A DNA stretch of 64,000 nucleotides from an uncultured Schlesneria sp. (GTDB taxonomy: Bacteria > Planctomycetota > Planctomycetia > Planctomycetales > Planctomycetaceae): the NCBI GenBank assembly GCA_903899985.1, contig CAIULL010000128.1:1-64000 (forward strand), in the 5' to 3' direction. A program made the translations under genes and the position numbers. The notes beneath the pieces were generated by a model. The model saw only the letters and a list, made by a program, of their open reading frames with translations. It ran no database searches and was not told the DNA's origin. This document shows, piece by piece, positions 53,220 to 61,604 of this stretch (the stretch's first letter is position 1; each line of letters begins with the position of its first letter).

Positions 53220-53447
53220 CTATTTTTCCTCGGGAGAATCTCCAAAACACCGTGCTGGCAATCGGATCAGAACACAATTCAAAAATCCGAGCGAAAAAAT
53301 CCAGGCAACCGCACTGTTGGCTGGAAACAAGGCGACCGCGATGATGCTGCCAATGATCACTAACAGATGAATCGAGTGGTACAAAATCAACTGTCGCCGT
53401 GATTTTTGAGTTACTGGCGGAATCTGACCCGACGGCATATTTGGCAT
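53220..53447 (-). CDS. Small two-helix membrane protein
   Basis: A 75-residue protein with a basic start, two predicted membrane helices (about 25-43 and 45-64) and a short acidic end. No family is recognised. It follows the 149-residue membrane protein gene by 24 bp on the same strand and so is probably the last gene of the membrane-protein operon. The frame lies in a lower-GC stretch. Being short and unmatched, it is less certain than its neighbours. Confidence 0.55.
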   Translation of the reverse strand: MPNMPSGQIPPVTQKSRRQLILYHSIHLLVIIGSIIAVALFPANSAVAWIFSLGFLNCVLIRLPARCFGDSPEEK

Positions 53448-53471
53448 GTTGAAACAATGTTGACCGTTGCA

Positions 53472-53921
53472 TTAGTCAAGTATCGATGAAAGTATTATCG
53501 CGACTGTGACCGCGCAGCCACCAATAAAACCCGCAAAAGTATAAAAAAACACGGTCTCGGTTCGATCAATGGGATGGACGTTGCCCCAGTATACAATTGC
53601 CAGCCCAATCGCTGTTGATGCGATCGGTCCAAGAACAATTGATGCGCATCCTAGTGAAAATCGTCGTTTGAGCCGTTTTGCTTTGAATTGCTCTTCAGAT
53701 TCGCCTGTGATGCCTGTCCAACGGCCCCCAGTCGCGATACCCCATACCGCAACAAAAAGCAGTGCAAGCACAAGGACGACGATCATTTGTCCGCCGCGCC
53801 GCCCGTGAATCAGAAGCGAAGGCTTTGCACTGAATACGAAAAACGTCGCAATACCTAATGCGATCGTTCCGATCTGTAAGCGTCGATCAGGCGGTTTTTC
53901 AGCTGGGGTGGTCATGAGCAT
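53472..53921 (-). CDS. Four-helix membrane protein, function unknown
   Basis: A 149-residue protein with predicted helices at about 17-34, 44-61, 93-112 and 123-147 and a basic loop after the second helix (EEQFKAKRLKRR). No family is recognised. It starts 28 bp after the end of the 309-residue membrane protein gene, on the same strand, so it is probably part of that operon or an addition at its end. ATG 53915 is a possible alternative start. Confidence 0.65.
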   Translation of the reverse strand: MLMTTPAEKPPDRRLQIGTIALGIATFFVFSAKPSLLIHGRRGGQMIVVLVLALLFVAVWGIATGGRWTGITGESEEQFKAKRLKRRFSLGCASIVLGPIASTAIGLAIVYWGNVHPIDRTETVFFYTFAGFIGGCAVTVAIILSSILD

Positions 53922-53949
53922 AGCTCAAATGGAATGACGGGATCCCTCT

Positions 53950-54879
53950 TTAGATTCGCACCAGACCCAGCCACTCATCAAACAGGAATTGCAGACGCAT
54001 GGTCAACAGCGTGATGCGTCCCATGACGGTGAGGGCAAACGAAGCTCCGAAGCTGATCATCAGCACCCAGATCCCGACGCGTGAGATCCGTCCGACCAGA
54101 CCTTTATGTTCGACGGAAAAGTAGAAATATGTGACACACGACAAGACGCTGATCACGATCACAATATTTTGAATCGACTGCTTCCAATCCAAGGCACTGC
54201 CACCAGATGCGTCAGCTGAGAATACGACGAGAGGCAGAACCGTGCTGCGGATTTGACGCACAAAATCTGCGTCCAGGAAACTGGTTAATTTCAAACCGGC
54301 TGTTGTGCCAACCACGAAGGCCAATGGCCAGCGACCCATCCAGGCGATCTTGGGAATTAAACGACAAAAGACCATGCAGCCGAGTACGACCGGAACGAGG
54401 TAAAGATAGTCCGCTTTTACATTCGTCGGAGTATCCGGCAAGAACGCATAACGTGCCACATCCGGTGCCAGCTTGACGAGCACCTTGGCGACAAGAACTT
54501 CCCAAAAGTTGGTGACGATCCAGTAACCTGCGGAAACGCCGACGATAATTGACTCAGCCAACTTGTAAAAGACGTTATCACGATAGAGATACGAGAAAAT
54601 GCATAACGTGAGCAGTGCCGCGATCCAGATTCCTGCCGTACGAGAAAAACTCCAGATGGCTTCGGGATCGCCTTTCGCCGCGGGTTCATAGATCACCGTT
54701 TTCACGGCCGCAGAGACGTCGGACGCTTCTTTGGCTGCAGGAATAATCTTACCGGTTGTGGCATCGACGCGCACGACAAATTGCTGGCCGACGCCTCGTT
54801 CTGTTCCAAGACTTTGGAATGCCAGTAGCAAGCAGCCGCCGAGGAACATGGCGGTCCAAAACCGTGTTTCGCGATTCAT
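53950..54879 (-). CDS. Membrane complex subunit 5: six-to-seven-helix protein, unknown
   Basis: A 309-residue protein with an N-terminal signal anchor (about 8-22), a soluble loop of about 60 residues, and then six or so membrane helices from about residue 83 onward, with the RLIPKIAWMGRWPLAFVVGT segment central and a last helix before the C-terminal FDEWLGLVRI. The start ATG overlaps the stop of the upstream gene by 4 bp. No family was recognised. Position and overlap make it a subunit of the same complex as the four genes upstream. Confidence 0.72.
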   Translation of the reverse strand: MNRETRFWTAMFLGGCLLLAFQSLGTERGVGQQFVVRVDATTGKIIPAAKEASDVSAAVKTVIYEPAAKGDPEAIWSFSRTAGIWIAALLTLCIFSYLYRDNVFYKLAESIIVGVSAGYWIVTNFWEVLVAKVLVKLAPDVARYAFLPDTPTNVKADYLYLVPVVLGCMVFCRLIPKIAWMGRWPLAFVVGTTAGLKLTSFLDADFVRQIRSTVLPLVVFSADASGGSALDWKQSIQNIVIVISVLSCVTYFYFSVEHKGLVGRISRVGIWVLMISFGASFALTVMGRITLLTMRLQFLFDEWLGLVRI

Positions 54880-55760
54880 CGACGTGGTGTCCTTCGATAA
54901 CGATTCGCCAGGTGGATTCCGTTTCCGAGTACGATCAGCCCAATCATCAGCCGATGTGCCCAGCGCTGTGCGCCCCCTCGCAAAAAGGCTGGCCGCTTAT
55001 TTCGGTTGGCGTACGGATTCGGATATTTCGCCGCCAGCATTGTTTCGTACTCGATCGCACCGCGGATTCCAGTGACGAGTCCCAGAAGTTGATCGGGGTA
55101 ATACGGGAACAGTTGCGTTGACTGAACCCCGGTGCAGCCGATGGCAATCGGGATCTTCTGCGGCGTCGCCGCGTATTGCACCCACTCCTTGCCGCCAGGA
55201 AACCCTGCCGAGACATTCACGATCAGGTCCATTTCCTTGACGCTCGGGACACCGGACATGATCGAAAGCTCGTCTAAACTGGTTCCCCTGGCGTCCTGCG
55301 GTCTCGCTTTGCGAATATCCGACGACATCTGGCTGATCGCAACAGCGTCACCGGCCAGATAGCCCAGGTTCATGTAGTCGACACCATAGACATATTGCCG
55401 ATCGCCCGAACCAAAGTCCGCCTGAACAACCGCCTTGATCGTCGATTCGATCATCGGTTTTCCCGTTGGCCAGATTGTGACGAAATACAGTTTATGATGC
55501 CGCAGACAGCAGTGCCTGGTAAACCCGAGTGCCATCGGATAAAGCTCGGCGGCCGATGTCGGGTCAAAGTCCATCGCCATCAAGATCCGTGACCCTTCCG
55601 GCAACCGCTCGATCTGATCAAACAGTTTGATCGTGGGTGGCGAAGGAGTCTCATCAGAACCGATCTGTAACAGAATTGGGGACAGAACGGCGAGTGCCAT
55701 TCCCAGGAAAATCCAGCGGCGATCGAGTCCGTTCAGTTTGTTGAGCAATGGGGAAGTCAC
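54876..55760 (-). CDS. Membrane complex subunit 4: soluble domain between two membrane helices
   Basis: A 294-residue protein with a helix at about 14-34, a soluble domain of some 220 residues (about 40-265) and a second helix at 268-286 before a basic tail. In the soluble part, LPEGSRILMAMDFDP, CLRHHKLYFVTIWPTG, DLIVNVSAG and IPIAIGCTGVQSTQL look like strand-loop elements of an alpha/beta fold. It overlaps both neighbours by 4 bp. It is paired in the same operon with a second protein that has a similar helix-domain-helix layout (56467-57519). Function not known. Confidence 0.72.
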   Translation of the reverse strand: MTSPLLNKLNGLDRRWIFLGMALAVLSPILLQIGSDETPSPPTIKLFDQIERLPEGSRILMAMDFDPTSAAELYPMALGFTRHCCLRHHKLYFVTIWPTGKPMIESTIKAVVQADFGSGDRQYVYGVDYMNLGYLAGDAVAISQMSSDIRKARPQDARGTSLDELSIMSGVPSVKEMDLIVNVSAGFPGGKEWVQYAATPQKIPIAIGCTGVQSTQLFPYYPDQLLGLVTGIRGAIEYETMLAAKYPNPYANRNKRPAFLRGGAQRWAHRLMIGLIVLGNGIHLANRYRRTPRR

Positions 55761-56467
55761 TCGTCACCTCCCAGGTACGATCGATCGAGCCCCAGCAGAA
55801 TTCGCAACGAAGTGGCAACGACCCCAAGTGCGATCCCGATCATAATGGCACGCTGACCGGCGGTGACAAACGTTTTGCGGATAAACTCTGTCAGGTCAGC
55901 AATCGGAAAATACGGCAGAGCTCCCTCGACGGGTGGCGGCAGAAACAACGATGTGATCTCACGGTCTCGTGTCTGACCAACCAGCACGATTAACGCCGTC
56001 AGCAGCAAGAGAATGGCTTCGACGTTTTTCGCGCGAAAGGCTCGAAAAGCCGCTGAGGCAACGTAAAAGGCGAGTAGCGCGAACATGGTCGAAACAATCG
56101 GACTGAACAGGTACTGGTAAATCCACCAGAATCCGCTCCCTTCCTGCTGAAATGGCCCGGACCAGGCAAATTTCAACTGCTGTTCGGACTCGGGAACGGC
56201 GCCAACCTTAAGTAATCCCACAGCGATCGTGATGAAAAACGAAAGTAAAGTCACCGTCGAAAAGCCCCATCCGGCTTCTCGATCAGAAATCTTTTTCAAA
56301 TGGTGCAGGCAGAGGTTCGCACCGCCAAGCATCATGGCAATCGTTGCCACAATCGTGAACCAGTCTTCGGCGATTTGTCGCACAGGCAACAAAGGGGGCG
56401 AGAAGTTGGCGACGATCATGATGAAGCCAACGATGCTGGCAATCAGTATCGGAACGGTCTTTGACAT
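55757..56467 (-). CDS. Membrane complex subunit 3: multi-helix protein
   Basis: A 236-residue hydrophobic protein with five or six predicted membrane helices, for example 4-22, 36-55, 67-86, 112-134, 138-158 and 205-224. A short conserved-looking loop carries FQQEGSGFWWIYQYLFSP. The start ATG 56467 shares one base with the stop of the upstream gene (TGATG), so it is coupled; the frame extends further upstream to 56578 inside the neighbour and that part is not real. No named family recognised. Confidence 0.72.
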   Translation of the reverse strand: MSKTVPILIASIVGFIMIVANFSPPLLPVRQIAEDWFTIVATIAMMLGGANLCLHHLKKISDREAGWGFSTVTLLSFFITIAVGLLKVGAVPESEQQLKFAWSGPFQQEGSGFWWIYQYLFSPIVSTMFALLAFYVASAAFRAFRAKNVEAILLLLTALIVLVGQTRDREITSLFLPPPVEGALPYFPIADLTEFIRKTFVTAGQRAIMIGIALGVVATSLRILLGLDRSYLGGDE

Positions 56468-57519
56468 CAACCACCCTTCAAGACGGTGTCGGTGATCCAC
56501 TGCGAGCGTCGCGGCAAATTCTGACCTTCTTCGCTTTTCCCGCGAGGCGATATCGAATCCCATGTCGCCAGCGAACAACCGAAAAGCAAAAGAACGATCG
56601 CGGCCAGTTTGCCAAAGTCCTGCCCTTTCAGCATCCCCATCTGTGCCGGTTCACCAGACAGATACGCTGACGCGGCAAAAAGCTCTTCGCCGAGAAGCGT
56701 ATAGTCACAGGCAGCCACAAAGAACGGAAGTTGCGTTGTTTCAGCCGTTCCTGCAATCTGGATTGCACCCACAGCATTCCCCGCTTCAGCAAGGAACAGA
56801 GACTCGGCGAAAAATTTTCCAAGAAAAAAGCAGGCCGCCGGTTTTTCGCGGTACATCCATCCGCAGACTGATGCGACGTAACCAAACTGTTCGTCGGTAA
56901 TGTAATGAATGCGATCTTCGTTGTAATAGTCGGGGCGACCCGCCGCGAGAGCCGCTGCCTGGACCGCTTCCCGTGCCGCCGTCATCACCAGCGCCCTCGA
57001 CGTCGGGACTTCGAGCGGCGTGTCGTATTCCGCCGCCATTTTTGCCACGCTCGATAGAACCATCAGTCCCGCGACGGTATCAATCTCTTTTATGTCTTCG
57101 ATGCCGGGGACAAACAGAATGGGTTTCCCCATTTCGGTCGCCCGCCCCACTGCTTCTTCCATCGCCAGCAAACCCGCGATCGGGCGTACGTAAAACGGTT
57201 TTCCCCGTCGTGCCAATTCCGTGCAGATGATCACGGTCGCACAAATGGCAATCGTCAGCAGAGCAAATGACGTTTTTCCGGTATCAAACCAGACCCTTTG
57301 CTTGGTCGATCCGGCGCTCTCGTCTGCCAATGACAAGGCGGGAAAGACCACCAAAAACAACAGCATTGCCAATGTTTTTTTTGTGAAGCGCACGCGTTCA
57401 CGGCAATCCCATGGACGTTTACCGACAAAAACAAGTGATTCAAATGCTGATTGGCCGCCCGATTTGACTCGCGTCGTAATGATTTCCTTTTTGGCATTCG
57501 TGTCAGAATGAAAATCCAT
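56467..57519 (-). CDS. Membrane complex subunit 2: DUF6754-like protein
   Basis: A 350-residue protein with a hydrophobic segment near 48-65 (signal-like), a membrane helix near 80-100, a large soluble domain (about 105-300) and a C-terminal helix near 305-325. The soluble domain opens with KPFYVRPIAGLLAMEEAVGR, then ILFVPGIEDI, PLEVPTSRAL, and closes with AASAYLSGEP. I believe this matches DUF6754, recalled from memory. The start ATG has AGGGGTG close upstream, overlapping the stop of the preceding gene, so the two are coupled. Confidence 0.75.
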   Translation of the reverse strand: MDFHSDTNAKKEIITTRVKSGGQSAFESLVFVGKRPWDCRERVRFTKKTLAMLLFLVVFPALSLADESAGSTKQRVWFDTGKTSFALLTIAICATVIICTELARRGKPFYVRPIAGLLAMEEAVGRATEMGKPILFVPGIEDIKEIDTVAGLMVLSSVAKMAAEYDTPLEVPTSRALVMTAAREAVQAAALAAGRPDYYNEDRIHYITDEQFGYVASVCGWMYREKPAACFFLGKFFAESLFLAEAGNAVGAIQIAGTAETTQLPFFVAACDYTLLGEELFAASAYLSGEPAQMGMLKGQDFGKLAAIVLLLFGCSLATWDSISPRGKSEEGQNLPRRSQWITDTVLKGG

Positions 57520-57522
57520 TTG

Positions 57523-58650
57523 TCACCCCTCAATCAATTCTACGTTGGCGCGAGGAACTGTCACCTCGGAACAATTGGCCAGAGTGACATTGACGACACG
57601 CGCCAGCGATTCGGATTCCAGGACAACCTGTTCGTGAGGCAGACCGGTCACCTGTCCCAGTACGCCGAAATAAGGTTCACGGATCACTCGAACGGAAGAG
57701 CCGACATTAAGCGCACCCGCAACCCGGCCGGCATCGCGGCTTTCGTCAGGCAGGGGCGCAACCAAAGGAATCACAATCTCAGGCCGCATGACGCCGGCGC
57801 GAATCTGAGTCGTACCATTCACACTGGCGTCGCGACCGGAATGCGAAGCCAGAAGATCGAATGTTCGACGAGCCATCGCAATGTCACCGAACCCTTCCGT
57901 GACGATAATTGTCGTTCCCAGCTTCTCAGTTCCCGTCACGGCAACTCCCAGGTCATAGCCCAGGATTTCTCGCAGATCGTGATCATCGATCCCCCCCGCG
58001 ACAATTGCCGAGGCGCCAACTTGAATTGCTTTTCGGACGGCATTTCCAGTAATTCTCCGTCCGCCGATGACGATACAGCCCCGGTGTTCGGATGTAATCA
58101 CGCTTTCGGTCACGTCATCGTCAGGAGAATTTGCGACGAGGCAAATCTTGCCAAATGCTTCGCCACCAATTCCAAAAATTCCCTGGATCAAGGCCACATC
58201 GGCTTCGACGACGACCCCTTCATTCGGAATCACTTCGACAATCATCCCGGAAAGATAGGCCAGGACCTGCACGGCATTTTGGGGGCCCCGTAAAATCACC
58301 TGCCCCGTGATTTTGGATATCGCTTCAATTGTTCCGTCTGACGGCGAAGGAAACTCCGACTGAAAGTAACCGAAGAATCCCTTCGTCCGTGCGAGCGAAT
58401 CACCGGCACGAACTGCCTCGCCAATTTTCCGTAACATGCTGCGAGACAGGTCTGACGGAGAAATCCCCAAGCGCTTAGCAAGATTGATCGGAACGGCGTC
58501 ACCCGGAAGAAATGTTCGAGCCACGACATCCTGTGCACTGACTTGATCACCGACCCGGACCACGACGTCGCCCGCAAGCGGCAGAAGCCTACGGCACCGC
58601 CAGCGGCAACCGCGTGAGACCATCAAACCTGGAGTATAAGCCTGTGCCAT
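57523..58650 (-). CDS. Membrane complex subunit 1: barrel-sandwich/KOW-like soluble protein
   Basis: A 375-residue protein without membrane helices, first in the operon. The first 160 residues have biotinyl/lipoyl-like barrel-sandwich features (LPLAGDVVVRVGDQVSAQDVV, then SPSDGTIEAISKITGQVI, ending VEVIPNEG), similar in style to the N-terminal domains of RnfC and NqrA. A central domain carries GRRITGNAVRKAIQVGAS and GGIDDHDLREILGYDLG. The C-terminal 60 residues resemble a KOW motif (GSSVRVIREPYFGVLGQV). I start at ATG 58650; GTG 58671 adds seven residues. No cysteine cluster typical of Rnf is present. Confidence 0.72.
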   Translation of the reverse strand: MAQAYTPGLMVSRGCRWRCRRLLPLAGDVVVRVGDQVSAQDVVARTFLPGDAVPINLAKRLGISPSDLSRSMLRKIGEAVRAGDSLARTKGFFGYFQSEFPSPSDGTIEAISKITGQVILRGPQNAVQVLAYLSGMIVEVIPNEGVVVEADVALIQGIFGIGGEAFGKICLVANSPDDDVTESVITSEHRGCIVIGGRRITGNAVRKAIQVGASAIVAGGIDDHDLREILGYDLGVAVTGTEKLGTTIIVTEGFGDIAMARRTFDLLASHSGRDASVNGTTQIRAGVMRPEIVIPLVAPLPDESRDAGRVAGALNVGSSVRVIREPYFGVLGQVTGLPHEQVVLESESLARVVNVTLANCSEVTVPRANVELIEG

Positions 58651-59211: not shown

Positions 59212-60618
59212 TCAGGCCTCTCCCAAACCCTTGGAGAGCGTCGTGACAACCTCCTTAAAGGCCACAAAGTTTGAGATCCCTGCCGAGACGATTGTCGTAA
59301 GCAACACTCCTCGGAAAGTATTTCTGGCAAGGGAACTCAAGCCACAATCAGGAACAAAAATTCCCGAAGCAACAATCGTCAGTAGTGGCAACATGTGAGC
59401 CGTGTAAAGAAAGGGCATTTGTCCATAAAACAGATGCATCACAAAGAACAATACGAGCGTGATGAACGACGCTTTTCGAGTCCGGAAACCATTCATTAGG
59501 CTCGAATCTAATGGCTCAATTCGAGTGGGCTCAAAAACTGCCTGAGACCGGAACACAGATAAAACACCCGACAACAAGAGGATACTCCAGGCAAGACTGG
59601 CGACAATGCTCGATATCGTATCGAACTGAATCCCCTTGAGCCTTGCCGATAATACGAGTGTGTCCTCGAAAGTCAGACCCGCTTTCGTTCTGAAAATACT
59701 CGGTATCGTGATAAATTCCACTTTTGGAACCACGATCGGGCTCACGAGAAGGTGAACGGGTCTCGCCCAAAGCGTCACTGCGTTACTCGCACCGACGTGA
59801 ACGGTTTCTTTGAGAAAAAGACGAACGTTAAAAAAGAGCGTCGCGTCTCCAAAAAATCGATCTTGTACAACGGATAAACATGCCGCCAGGAACAGTACTG
59901 TTGCGAAGTAGGCCAACAGTGGGCGAATCTGTTTCTTAAAGGTTTCAGTGATAGAACGAAGGGAAACGTTGTCGAATACGCCGTGAGCGGTCAGAGCGGC
60001 AAACACGGTCGCTGCAAAATTTGTGATGGTCACAGACATTGATGCAACACCCGAGAAGATCGTCAGTGCGATTCTCGCGCTGGGCGAAGTACATTTGAAC
60101 CAATAGACCGCATGTAATGCGATTAAAAGAGTCGTCGCTCCGAATGGAAACGTTTCGATTACCGAATACCAGAAGATAAATCCGCCAGAAGCCAGGTAAA
60201 GTAACGTCAATAGTACGCGGTCGATTGCTGGAAGACGGAATTTTCTCAAAAGAGACCAGAGTGCCGCTATCGACACGGAAGAATTAACCGCCAGCATAAG
60301 TCGAATTGAAAAATATTCATTATGCACAAAGGTGTTGATTGACTGAGTAATGGGCCAAAACACAATCGAAAAGAGTGGATGTTTAAATGTATCATGATGA
60401 CCGCTTGCACGAATCGTCAGGTTTTCGAACACCCTGGGAATGTCTGCGTCAAAATAGGCATTCAGATAGATCCAACCGATAAGCCCCTTGGGAGGGGACT
60501 CGGATAAAAACCACGAAAACGAAAATGCAACGATCAGGAGCAGAAGGAGTTCAATGAGACTCGGTTTGACAAATTTCCCAAGCGTCGAAACTGTCGTTTG
60601 CGATTCGATCTTTGTCAT
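59212..60618 (-). CDS. GT-C-like multi-pass membrane protein
   Basis: A 468-residue protein with about ten predicted membrane helices. The N-terminal loop after the first helix carries FDADIPRVFENL and GHHDTFKHPLFS, with acidic residues in the position where GT-C glycosyltransferases (ArnT/PMT type) keep a catalytic Asp-containing motif. This suggests transfer of a sugar from a lipid carrier, but no specific family was recognised and the metal-binding Asp cannot be confirmed. The gene is AT-richer than the adjacent operon and stands alone between two long gaps, consistent with later acquisition. Confidence 0.7.
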   Translation of the reverse strand: MTKIESQTTVSTLGKFVKPSLIELLLLLIVAFSFSWFLSESPPKGLIGWIYLNAYFDADIPRVFENLTIRASGHHDTFKHPLFSIVFWPITQSINTFVHNEYFSIRLMLAVNSSVSIAALWSLLRKFRLPAIDRVLLTLLYLASGGFIFWYSVIETFPFGATTLLIALHAVYWFKCTSPSARIALTIFSGVASMSVTITNFAATVFAALTAHGVFDNVSLRSITETFKKQIRPLLAYFATVLFLAACLSVVQDRFFGDATLFFNVRLFLKETVHVGASNAVTLWARPVHLLVSPIVVPKVEFITIPSIFRTKAGLTFEDTLVLSARLKGIQFDTISSIVASLAWSILLLSGVLSVFRSQAVFEPTRIEPLDSSLMNGFRTRKASFITLVLFFVMHLFYGQMPFLYTAHMLPLLTIVASGIFVPDCGLSSLARNTFRGVLLTTIVSAGISNFVAFKEVVTTLSKGLGEA

Positions 60619-61001: not shown

Positions 61002-61604
61002 TCATGACACGAATGTCACGGGAAGTCGGCGAACATTAATTCCGATCAGGAAATAGAGCCAGCCATTAAAAATCAGGTCGATACCCAAAAAAGTACCGAT
61101 GACCCACAGCCCCGAAAACGGTGTCTGCTGCCAGATCATCACACCCAGTGACAGCGTGATGATTCCGTTAACAAGAACCCAACCTCGCCCTCGGAACGAC
61201 CCTGACAACGCCGCGATAATTCGGAACAACCCACCCACCATGAAAAATGACGCCATCAACAGGGTGTAAACGATCGCGGCTTCTTGCGGATGCCGGACAC
61301 AAATCGCGCCCATCACCAGTTGAAGCACTCCGGTCAACAGCGTGAGGAAAAATCCGCCCCAACTTCCTGTAAAGAACGAACCCGCAATGTAGGTAGCTCC
61401 TCCCAGGATCAGAAAGAATCCAATCACTTCAACGGTGGCGATCGTATAAAGTGATGAATAAGTCAGAGCTGACACCCCCAGCGCAATAAGTGCCACGCCG
61501 AGCAACACAAACCAGATCCACGCCCCTTGCAGCTTCTTCAGATCTTCTTGAATGATGGGTGACAATCTGGAAAAGGGACTGGTCGAAGGGGTGTCAGTCG
61601 ACAT
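61002..61604 (-). CDS. HdeD-like (DUF308) membrane protein
   Basis: A 200-residue protein with six predicted membrane helices in three similar pairs, the pattern of the HdeD/DUF308 family: WIWFVLLGVALIALGVSAL, then GGATYIAGSFF, and a final helix pair with GTFLGIDLIFNG. HdeD of E. coli is linked to acid resistance at high cell density, but the family's molecular role is not established. The first 25 residues are polar and cytoplasmic. The length is typical. Neighbouring genes give no further clue. Confidence 0.85.
   Translation of the reverse strand: MSTDTPSTSPFSRLSPIIQEDLKKLQGAWIWFVLLGVALIALGVSALTYSSLYTIATVEVIGFFLILGGATYIAGSFFTGSWGGFFLTLLTGVLQLVMGAICVRHPQEAAIVYTLLMASFFMVGGLFRIIAALSGSFRGRGWVLVNGIITLSLGVMIWQQTPFSGLWVIGTFLGIDLIFNGWLYFLIGINVRRLPVTFVS

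Follow-up and report, generated by a model that had tools for sequence, protein, structure and literature searches.

The window (the whole 64,000-nucleotide stretch analysed) carried five genes of a defined gene set (I, H, A and B to E) in which an ATPase superfamily of soluble-enzyme repair was tied to a membrane module. The system was widespread: all 80 genomes sampled from Zixibacteria had it, as did 76 of the 294 sampled from the phylum of the window and, as given in the sequence records, about ten further phyla; yet no description of it was found in the literature searched. In the window, A-B-C-D-E was a real operon of five minus-strand ORFs (58650..53950), all of them under purifying selection with respect to the sister species (dN/dS 0.06-0.12). 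We infer that the products form a transport-type complex and that a common ASKHA ATPase energises or activates it. The features of the operon were the following:

57523..58650, minus strand: gene A, soluble, 375 aa, ATG start (ORF; dN/dS 0.080; Pfam on 18 homologues)
58294..58431, minus strand: Biotin_lipoyl-matching part of A, barrel-sandwich region (Pfam E 0.0013; residues 81-126 of the 382-aa frame)
56467..57393, minus strand: gene B with probable GTG start (open frame 56467-57519; dN/dS 0.116 over the whole frame)
56557..57297, minus strand: DUF6754 domain of B, predicted cytoplasmic (PF20539 match; Rossmann-like in the AlphaFold model; charge counts)
55757..56467, minus strand: gene C, polytopic membrane protein with six hydrophobic segments, ATG start (ORF; hydropathy scan; dN/dS 0.084)
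54876..55760, minus strand: gene D, membrane-anchored, Rossmann-like domain predicted extracytoplasmic, GTG start (ORF; AlphaFold; charge counts; dN/dS 0.060)
53950..54879, minus strand: gene E, polytopic membrane protein with five hydrophobic segments (ORF; hydropathy scan; dN/dS 0.075)

The original prediction of coupling by 1-4 bp overlaps or a 3-bp gap held for three junctions: B and C shared 1 bp (TGATG), and the overlaps of C with D (GTGA) and of D with E (ATGA) were both 4 bp. It probably did not hold between A and B, where the 3-bp gap holds only if B begins at the first possible start of its frame. In that frame, codons 1-45 evolved nearly neutrally (dN/dS 0.84 vs. 0.02 for codons 81-350, with respect to the sister species), so the true start of B is probably a GTG at 57393 (the sister species has ATG at this codon), and the gap would therefore be about 129 bp. 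The block conserved between the window and one related locus (L073) ended at 58650, where A starts. The intergenic gaps tabulated for the relatives assume that every frame begins at its first start codon, and may thus overstate tight coupling. Two small membrane proteins encoded downstream, formerly attached to the operon, were rejected as subunits, since they had no relatives beyond the sister species in the loci searched: the ORF at 53472-53921 had one relative, in the sister species (72% identity; 120 loci searched), and the ORF at 53220-53447 had none among the 120 loci.

Synteny was broad, extending over many bacterial phyla rather than being confined to this genome, and C, D and E of the window had no accepted Pfam match, in place of clear matches to unrelated known families; both results supported the view that this membrane system is tightly coupled and uncharacterised. 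The complete set B, C, D and E was present in 107 of 121 sources (two pairs among the 120 loci, L070/L096 and L044/L124, are duplicates). In 13 multi-module loci, same-module partners were far better matched than within-locus shuffles for all six pairs (r 0.83-0.92 vs. shuffle means of 0.18-0.22, a level reached by 0 of 1000 shuffles; 39 of 156 modules were left out as incomplete). B-C-D-E was thus usually inherited as a set, behaving as a module. Exceptions were six loci in which at least 4.6 kb of sequence followed B but profile search found no adjacent C-D-E (L034, L068, L092, L098) or D-E (L035, L108); within the family of the window, a few loci had A-B without adjacent C-D-E.

One soluble and four membrane partners had been proposed, which fitted A to E; the soluble side, however, also included H, overlooked in that proposal, and often a small soluble protein, I. 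Both H and I were encoded on another contig in the window genome. H was an ASKHA ATPase of about 600 aa from the GlmL/MutL superfamily: it exceeded the PF13941 gathering score (427.8 bits in locus L033, 425.5 bits in the window genome), with a match spanning nearly the full model (6.3e-128). The DCGSTTTK, DIGGATTD and SGG positions, which we take to be the phosphate and adenosine motifs of ASKHA ATPases, were nearly invariant among 62 H sequences, and the ATP motifs were thus intact as in the rest of the superfamily. Unlike other members, H of the window genome was below the NCBIfam cut-offs for the GlmL equivalog (218.5 bits vs. 475), for glmL_fam (159.6 vs. 204.05) and for Or-4, had about 115 extra residues after the MutL region, was found together with A and the membrane module, and occurred without glutamate mutase. 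Glutamate mutase is the known client of GlmL; of the 294 genomes, 5 had GlmE (PF06368) above the cut-off, none of them with B or a strong H, and on this distribution H was rejected as a glutamate-mutase helper.

H was linked to the operon by gene order, fusion and co-occurrence. It was followed by A in 46 of 61 H genes of the relatives, and the two were fused in three Neomarinimicrobiota records (L077, L084, L103); one D-E fusion was also found (L116). Fused H-A paralogues existed without B-C-D-E in the flanks examined. H, A and B occurred together in 67 of the 294 genomes (B without A in 8, B without H in 6), and Fisher tests treating these genomes as independent gave 1.5e-53 (A, B), 3.4e-55 (H, B) and 1.2e-61 (H, A). 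For these counts, five weak H matches (genomes G010, G098, G197, G235, G290) were removed from 79, and one of the 71 A matches (G053) was a 28-residue piece at a contig end. The copy ratio was unequal in Zixibacteria: 364 B matches in 80 genomes, with A in 76 (all but G319, G365, G366, G373) and H in 78 (all but G343, G365; several matches partial, e.g. G334, G364, G366), nearly always as one close copy (two close copies of H in G377).

The membrane proteins agreed with their predicted layouts. B was a full member of DUF6754, as had been suggested (PF20539, 385.6 bits vs. a cut-off of 27, E 1.2e-115), a family with no assigned function and not named in the literature searched; it comprised a signal-like stretch, a short ectodomain, a membrane helix, the DUF6754 domain and a second membrane helix. 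AlphaFold models confirmed the helix-domain-helix layout of B (pLDDT 88.3) and D (pLDDT 93.5) with the same order of secondary-structure elements, and charge counts placed their domains on opposite membrane faces (B cytoplasmic, D outer, both predicted). The multi-helix character claimed for C and E was borne out by hydropathy (six and five membrane segments). Profile comparison detected no homology between B and D or between C and E. Foldseek returned no match at E<=0.001 for B and six for D; the matches of both were set aside because the TM-score by query length was <=0.32 among the 50 listed for each. Profiles of A, B, D and E, and H itself, found nothing convincing in sequence searches of the PDB; the best match was that of NusG to the KOW end of A (0.016).

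The most favoured explanation, held tentatively, is that the H-A pair drives or resets B-C-D-E, which moves or hands over a ligand. B, C, D and E would usually form a four-subunit membrane module, with the Rossmann-like domain of B at the cytoplasmic face, a domain of the same element order in D at the outer face, and C and E polytopic. The cytoplasmic ATPase H would work with the barrel/KOW protein A, often also with I, and most likely would hydrolyse ATP and, via A, drive or reset conformational changes in the module; a small ligand could then be moved or handed over from one Rossmann-like domain to the other. The scheme presumes that H, A and B to E form a physical complex, and it also presumes the ATP coupling, the topology, the direction of the process and the substrate. 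A single H-A pair may serve one or several modules, a division of labour that would resemble ECF-type ABC transporters, in which one soluble energising unit is common to several membrane modules; unlike these, no ABC ATPase was matched by Pfam in A to E or H, and the ATPase has the ASKHA fold. In a bolder reading, which we consider rather unlikely, the system would be a primary membrane machine of a new class: a four-subunit transporter powered directly by an ATPase of ASKHA fold that is akin to enzyme reactivases, with one ATPase-adaptor pair powering several (up to about six) paralogous modules per cell.

Several observations speak against the favoured scheme: the known relatives of H act on soluble enzymes, by repair or activation, and not on transporters; six loci lack C-D-E or D-E next to B; some genomes have B without A or H; B and D showed no homology by profile; and fused H-A paralogues occur with no B-C-D-E in the flanks. 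H-A might, as with its GlmL-type relatives, be an ATP-dependent maturation or reactivation chaperone that loads or repairs a membrane enzyme formed by B-C-D-E, one chaperone attending several paralogous enzymes. Membership of H in PF13941, its best NCBIfam matches (GlmL-type accessory proteins) and the presence of one H per several modules, as expected of a catalytic chaperone, are consistent with this reading; however, none of B, C, D and E bore a recognised enzyme signature, and there is no known client, glutamate mutase being absent from genomes with strong H. We regard it as possible, though doubtful. A quite improbable reading is an Rnf/Nqr-like redox-driven ion pump with A in the role of RnfC/NqrA. 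A combined a barrel-sandwich (RnfC/NqrA/biotinyl-like) N-terminal part, a middle domain without recognised fold and a KOW-like C-terminus. The resemblance to RnfC/NqrA was weak in the window protein itself (Biotin_lipoyl 0.0013, NqrA 0.054, no RnfC_N match) but clearer in its 18 homologues: RnfC_N in 10 (best 5e-7; Pfam, E up to 0.05) and NQRA_N in 4 (best 0.02). The absence of the iron-sulfur cysteine pattern was rightly noted originally, because no Cys/His column of A reached 90% among the 18 homologues; C had none either, and B (C207), D (H269) and E (H258) had one each. The pump was set aside for want of a conserved ligand set, and A also differed from RnfC/NqrA in its KOW-like end, its ATPase partner and its unrelated membrane genes, C, D and E having no Pfam match to Rnf/Nqr subunits.

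A role in envelope or membrane-lipid assembly appears improbable. PlsX (4), CdsA-type (4) and AMP-binding (3) proteins among 113 flanking proteins scanned are a weak hint, given with no background rate (166 candidates; the 113 were 111 of 131 listed plus two L153 proteins; family counts from the first 25 of 103), and Phycisphaerae loci adjoined fatty-acid genes; the same scan, however, gave a very mixed neighbourhood of 103 families, and modules elsewhere adjoined sugar, SAM or ABC-importer genes. A defence system was rejected, PADLOC giving one weak match alone ('Control_protein', 0.0025, on C). One scan of viral contigs revealed no viral relatives of B. Long B proteins have, in our reading, an FnIII-like ectodomain (a weak Pfam fn3 match, 0.08, in one of five).

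The operon in the window comprised genes for a soluble barrel-sandwich/KOW-like protein (A), a DUF6754 (PF20539) protein (B), two polytopic membrane proteins (C and E) and a membrane-anchored protein (D). The following features were located in and beside it:

58650 to 53950, minus strand: the five genes, in the order A-B-C-D-E
57393: GTG codon, probable start of B
59212-60618: unrelated 468-aa ORF with no Pfam match, lying between A and the next feature
61002-61604: relative (90% identical) of a DUF308 protein encoded 18 bp before A in L073, the sister-species locus

The original prediction of a five-gene coupled operon was borne out by the overlaps B/C (1 bp), C/D (4 bp) and D/E (4 bp), and B was a clear member of DUF6754, as had been proposed for one gene. 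For C, D and E of the window, Pfam gave no accepted match and NCBIfam none above cut-off. The closest named relative found, L073 (an uncultured Schlesneria record, 95% identity across the B segment), was alignable from 53951 to 58650, limits in keeping with an ATG start for A and with where E ends. All five genes were under purifying selection with respect to this locus (dN/dS of 0.080, 0.116, 0.084, 0.060 and 0.075 for A to E respectively). Within the B frame, dN/dS was 0.84 (nearly neutral) for codons 1-45 and 0.02 for codons 81-350; judging from this near-neutral segment, B probably starts at the GTG, in which case the A-B gap would be about 129 bp instead of the 3 bp first proposed. The two small genes downstream of E could not be retained as operon members: among the loci searched, only the sister species held a relative of the first (dN/dS 0.289 at 72% identity), and no relative of the second was found.

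DUF6754 was present in 76 of 294 sampled genomes from Planctomycetota, the phylum of the window, and in none of 14 control genomes. A scan of named genomes gave at least 575 confirmed relatives, 80 loci being kept; among the matches listed, these were titled Planctomycetota, Neomarinimicrobiota, Zixibacteria, Gemmatimonadota, Acidobacteriota, Cloacimonadota, Latescibacterota, WOR-3, Fermentibacteraceae, Stahlbacteria, Caldithrix and others (labels from record titles only, nearly all metagenome assemblies). All 121 sources (the window and 120 loci) had a profile match for B; for C the number was 114, for D 110, for E 107, for A 75 and for H, an ATPase described below, 63. B, C, D and E were all present in 107 sources, and A to E were all found as separate frames in 64; D and E formed a single reading frame in L116. 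Fourteen sources lacked at least one of the genes C, D and E; eight of these extended 2.2 kb or less downstream of B. The other six lacked C, D and E (L034, L068, L092, L098) or D and E (L035, L108) by profiles despite 4.6 to 8.9 kb downstream, so that they showed A-B or A-B-C alone, and at least three (L034, L035, L068) belong to the window's own family. Because of these loci, the module is described here as usually, not obligately, four-subunit, and the best reading given below is rated a little less confidently.

Of the first 40 loci fetched, 24 encoded a protein of about 600 aa, H, mostly directly before A. H of L033 belonged to the MutL/GlmL superfamily of ASKHA ATPases (PF13941, 6.3e-128); H scored far below the cut-offs for GlmL, the accessory protein of glutamate mutase. 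The gene following 61 selected H genes was A in 46 cases, B in 3, another gene in 8 and an opposite-strand gene in 3, with one contig end. H and A formed a single reading frame in L077, L084 and L103 (874, cut at the contig end, 999 and 1006 aa), all titled Neomarinimicrobiota. The single PF13941 protein of the window's genome was encoded on another contig (C233; L153:8231-10075), adjoining a 108-aa gene, I (L153:7817-8143); both sit behind two ORFs, a large one and one of AMP-binding type that by our reading may be lipid-related. The I family occurred in 56 of 121 sources and, where the neighbour was readable (34), preceded H in 24 and B in 8. A membrane-type protein of about 160 aa recurred two genes before H (L099:4813-5295 and 14 other loci), the one member tested having no Pfam match.

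Among the 294 genomes, many of them incomplete, A was found in 71 and strong H in 74; A and B were shared by 68, H and B by 70, H and A by 70, and all three by 67. The mismatches were B without A in 8 genomes, B without H in 6, A without B in 3 and H without B in 4. Glutamate mutase was above cut-off in five genomes, all of which lacked both B and strong H; four of the five carried weak H-like hits, presumably true GlmL, which were left out of the H counts.

Selected B genes numbered one in 96 sources, two in 12 and three in 12, with none selected in one. In the 13 loci with at least two complete modules, the distances of B, C, D and E genes belonging to one module correlated at 0.83 to 0.92; within-locus shuffles of module membership gave mean correlations of 0.18 to 0.22, and for none of the six pairs did any of 1000 shuffles reach the real correlation. 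All 80 genomes sampled from the phylum of L088, a record titled Zixibacteria, had DUF6754 (364 matches, which can include fragments; five in 44 genomes). A was found in 76 of them and H in 78, nearly always as a single close copy; four also had distant paralogues of the fused type, with an H part 42-44% identical. In each of ten genomes checked, nine of them titled Zixibacteria, a single close H accompanied 3-6 B matches (distant H in two), the extra modules being located elsewhere in the genome.

The AlphaFold models of B and D were confident (pLDDT 88.3 and 93.5, respectively), both with a helix, a helix-strand alternating Rossmann-like domain of six strands and a closing helix; by our reading of the element lists, the two appear to share a common element order. 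The Foldseek matches listed for either model were generic only. Lys/Arg counts were 0.44 before and 4.37 after the first helix of B, and 3.61 before the first, 1.14 after the first and 3.75 after the last helix of D, from which the B domain is predicted inside and the D domain outside. In the best reading, cytoplasmic H would act through A to drive or reset a membrane module that has a ligand-binding-type domain on each face, one H-A pair serving several modules. That H-A is instead a chaperone or reactivase is nearly as likely, because the known relatives of H act in this way. The RnfC barrel and KOW parts of A, supported in only some homologues, are, with the GlmL superfamily of H, the known families touched. 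A redox pump is an unlikely reading. We know of no system matching this combination of parts and a shared ATPase. In the open-access library searched, no paper contained DUF6754, PF20539 or PF13941, and among the matches listed by broader searches none concerned the A-B-C-D-E/H system.

Six of 14 further module regions adjoined nucleotidyltransferase, SAM synthetase and S-adenosylhomocysteinase-like genes, and five (L167, L168, L170, L173, L176; C uncalled in L173, D in L170) were divergent from a sugar-type ABC importer (Pfam on examples; S-adenosylhomocysteinase and permease names are our own reading). L171:7689-12222 had the order D-E-B-C beside a receiver-like regulator gene, its D frame carrying HAMP and PAS domains ahead of the D domain, and L169:8542-10318 a tandem pair of B genes followed by C-D-E. 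The distant paralogues L154:7275-9749, L155:7310-9817 and L159:700-2808 carried H and A parts in single frames (825, 836 and 703 aa) with no B-C-D-E in the fetched flanks, and one of them adjoined an ORF reading like MraZ.
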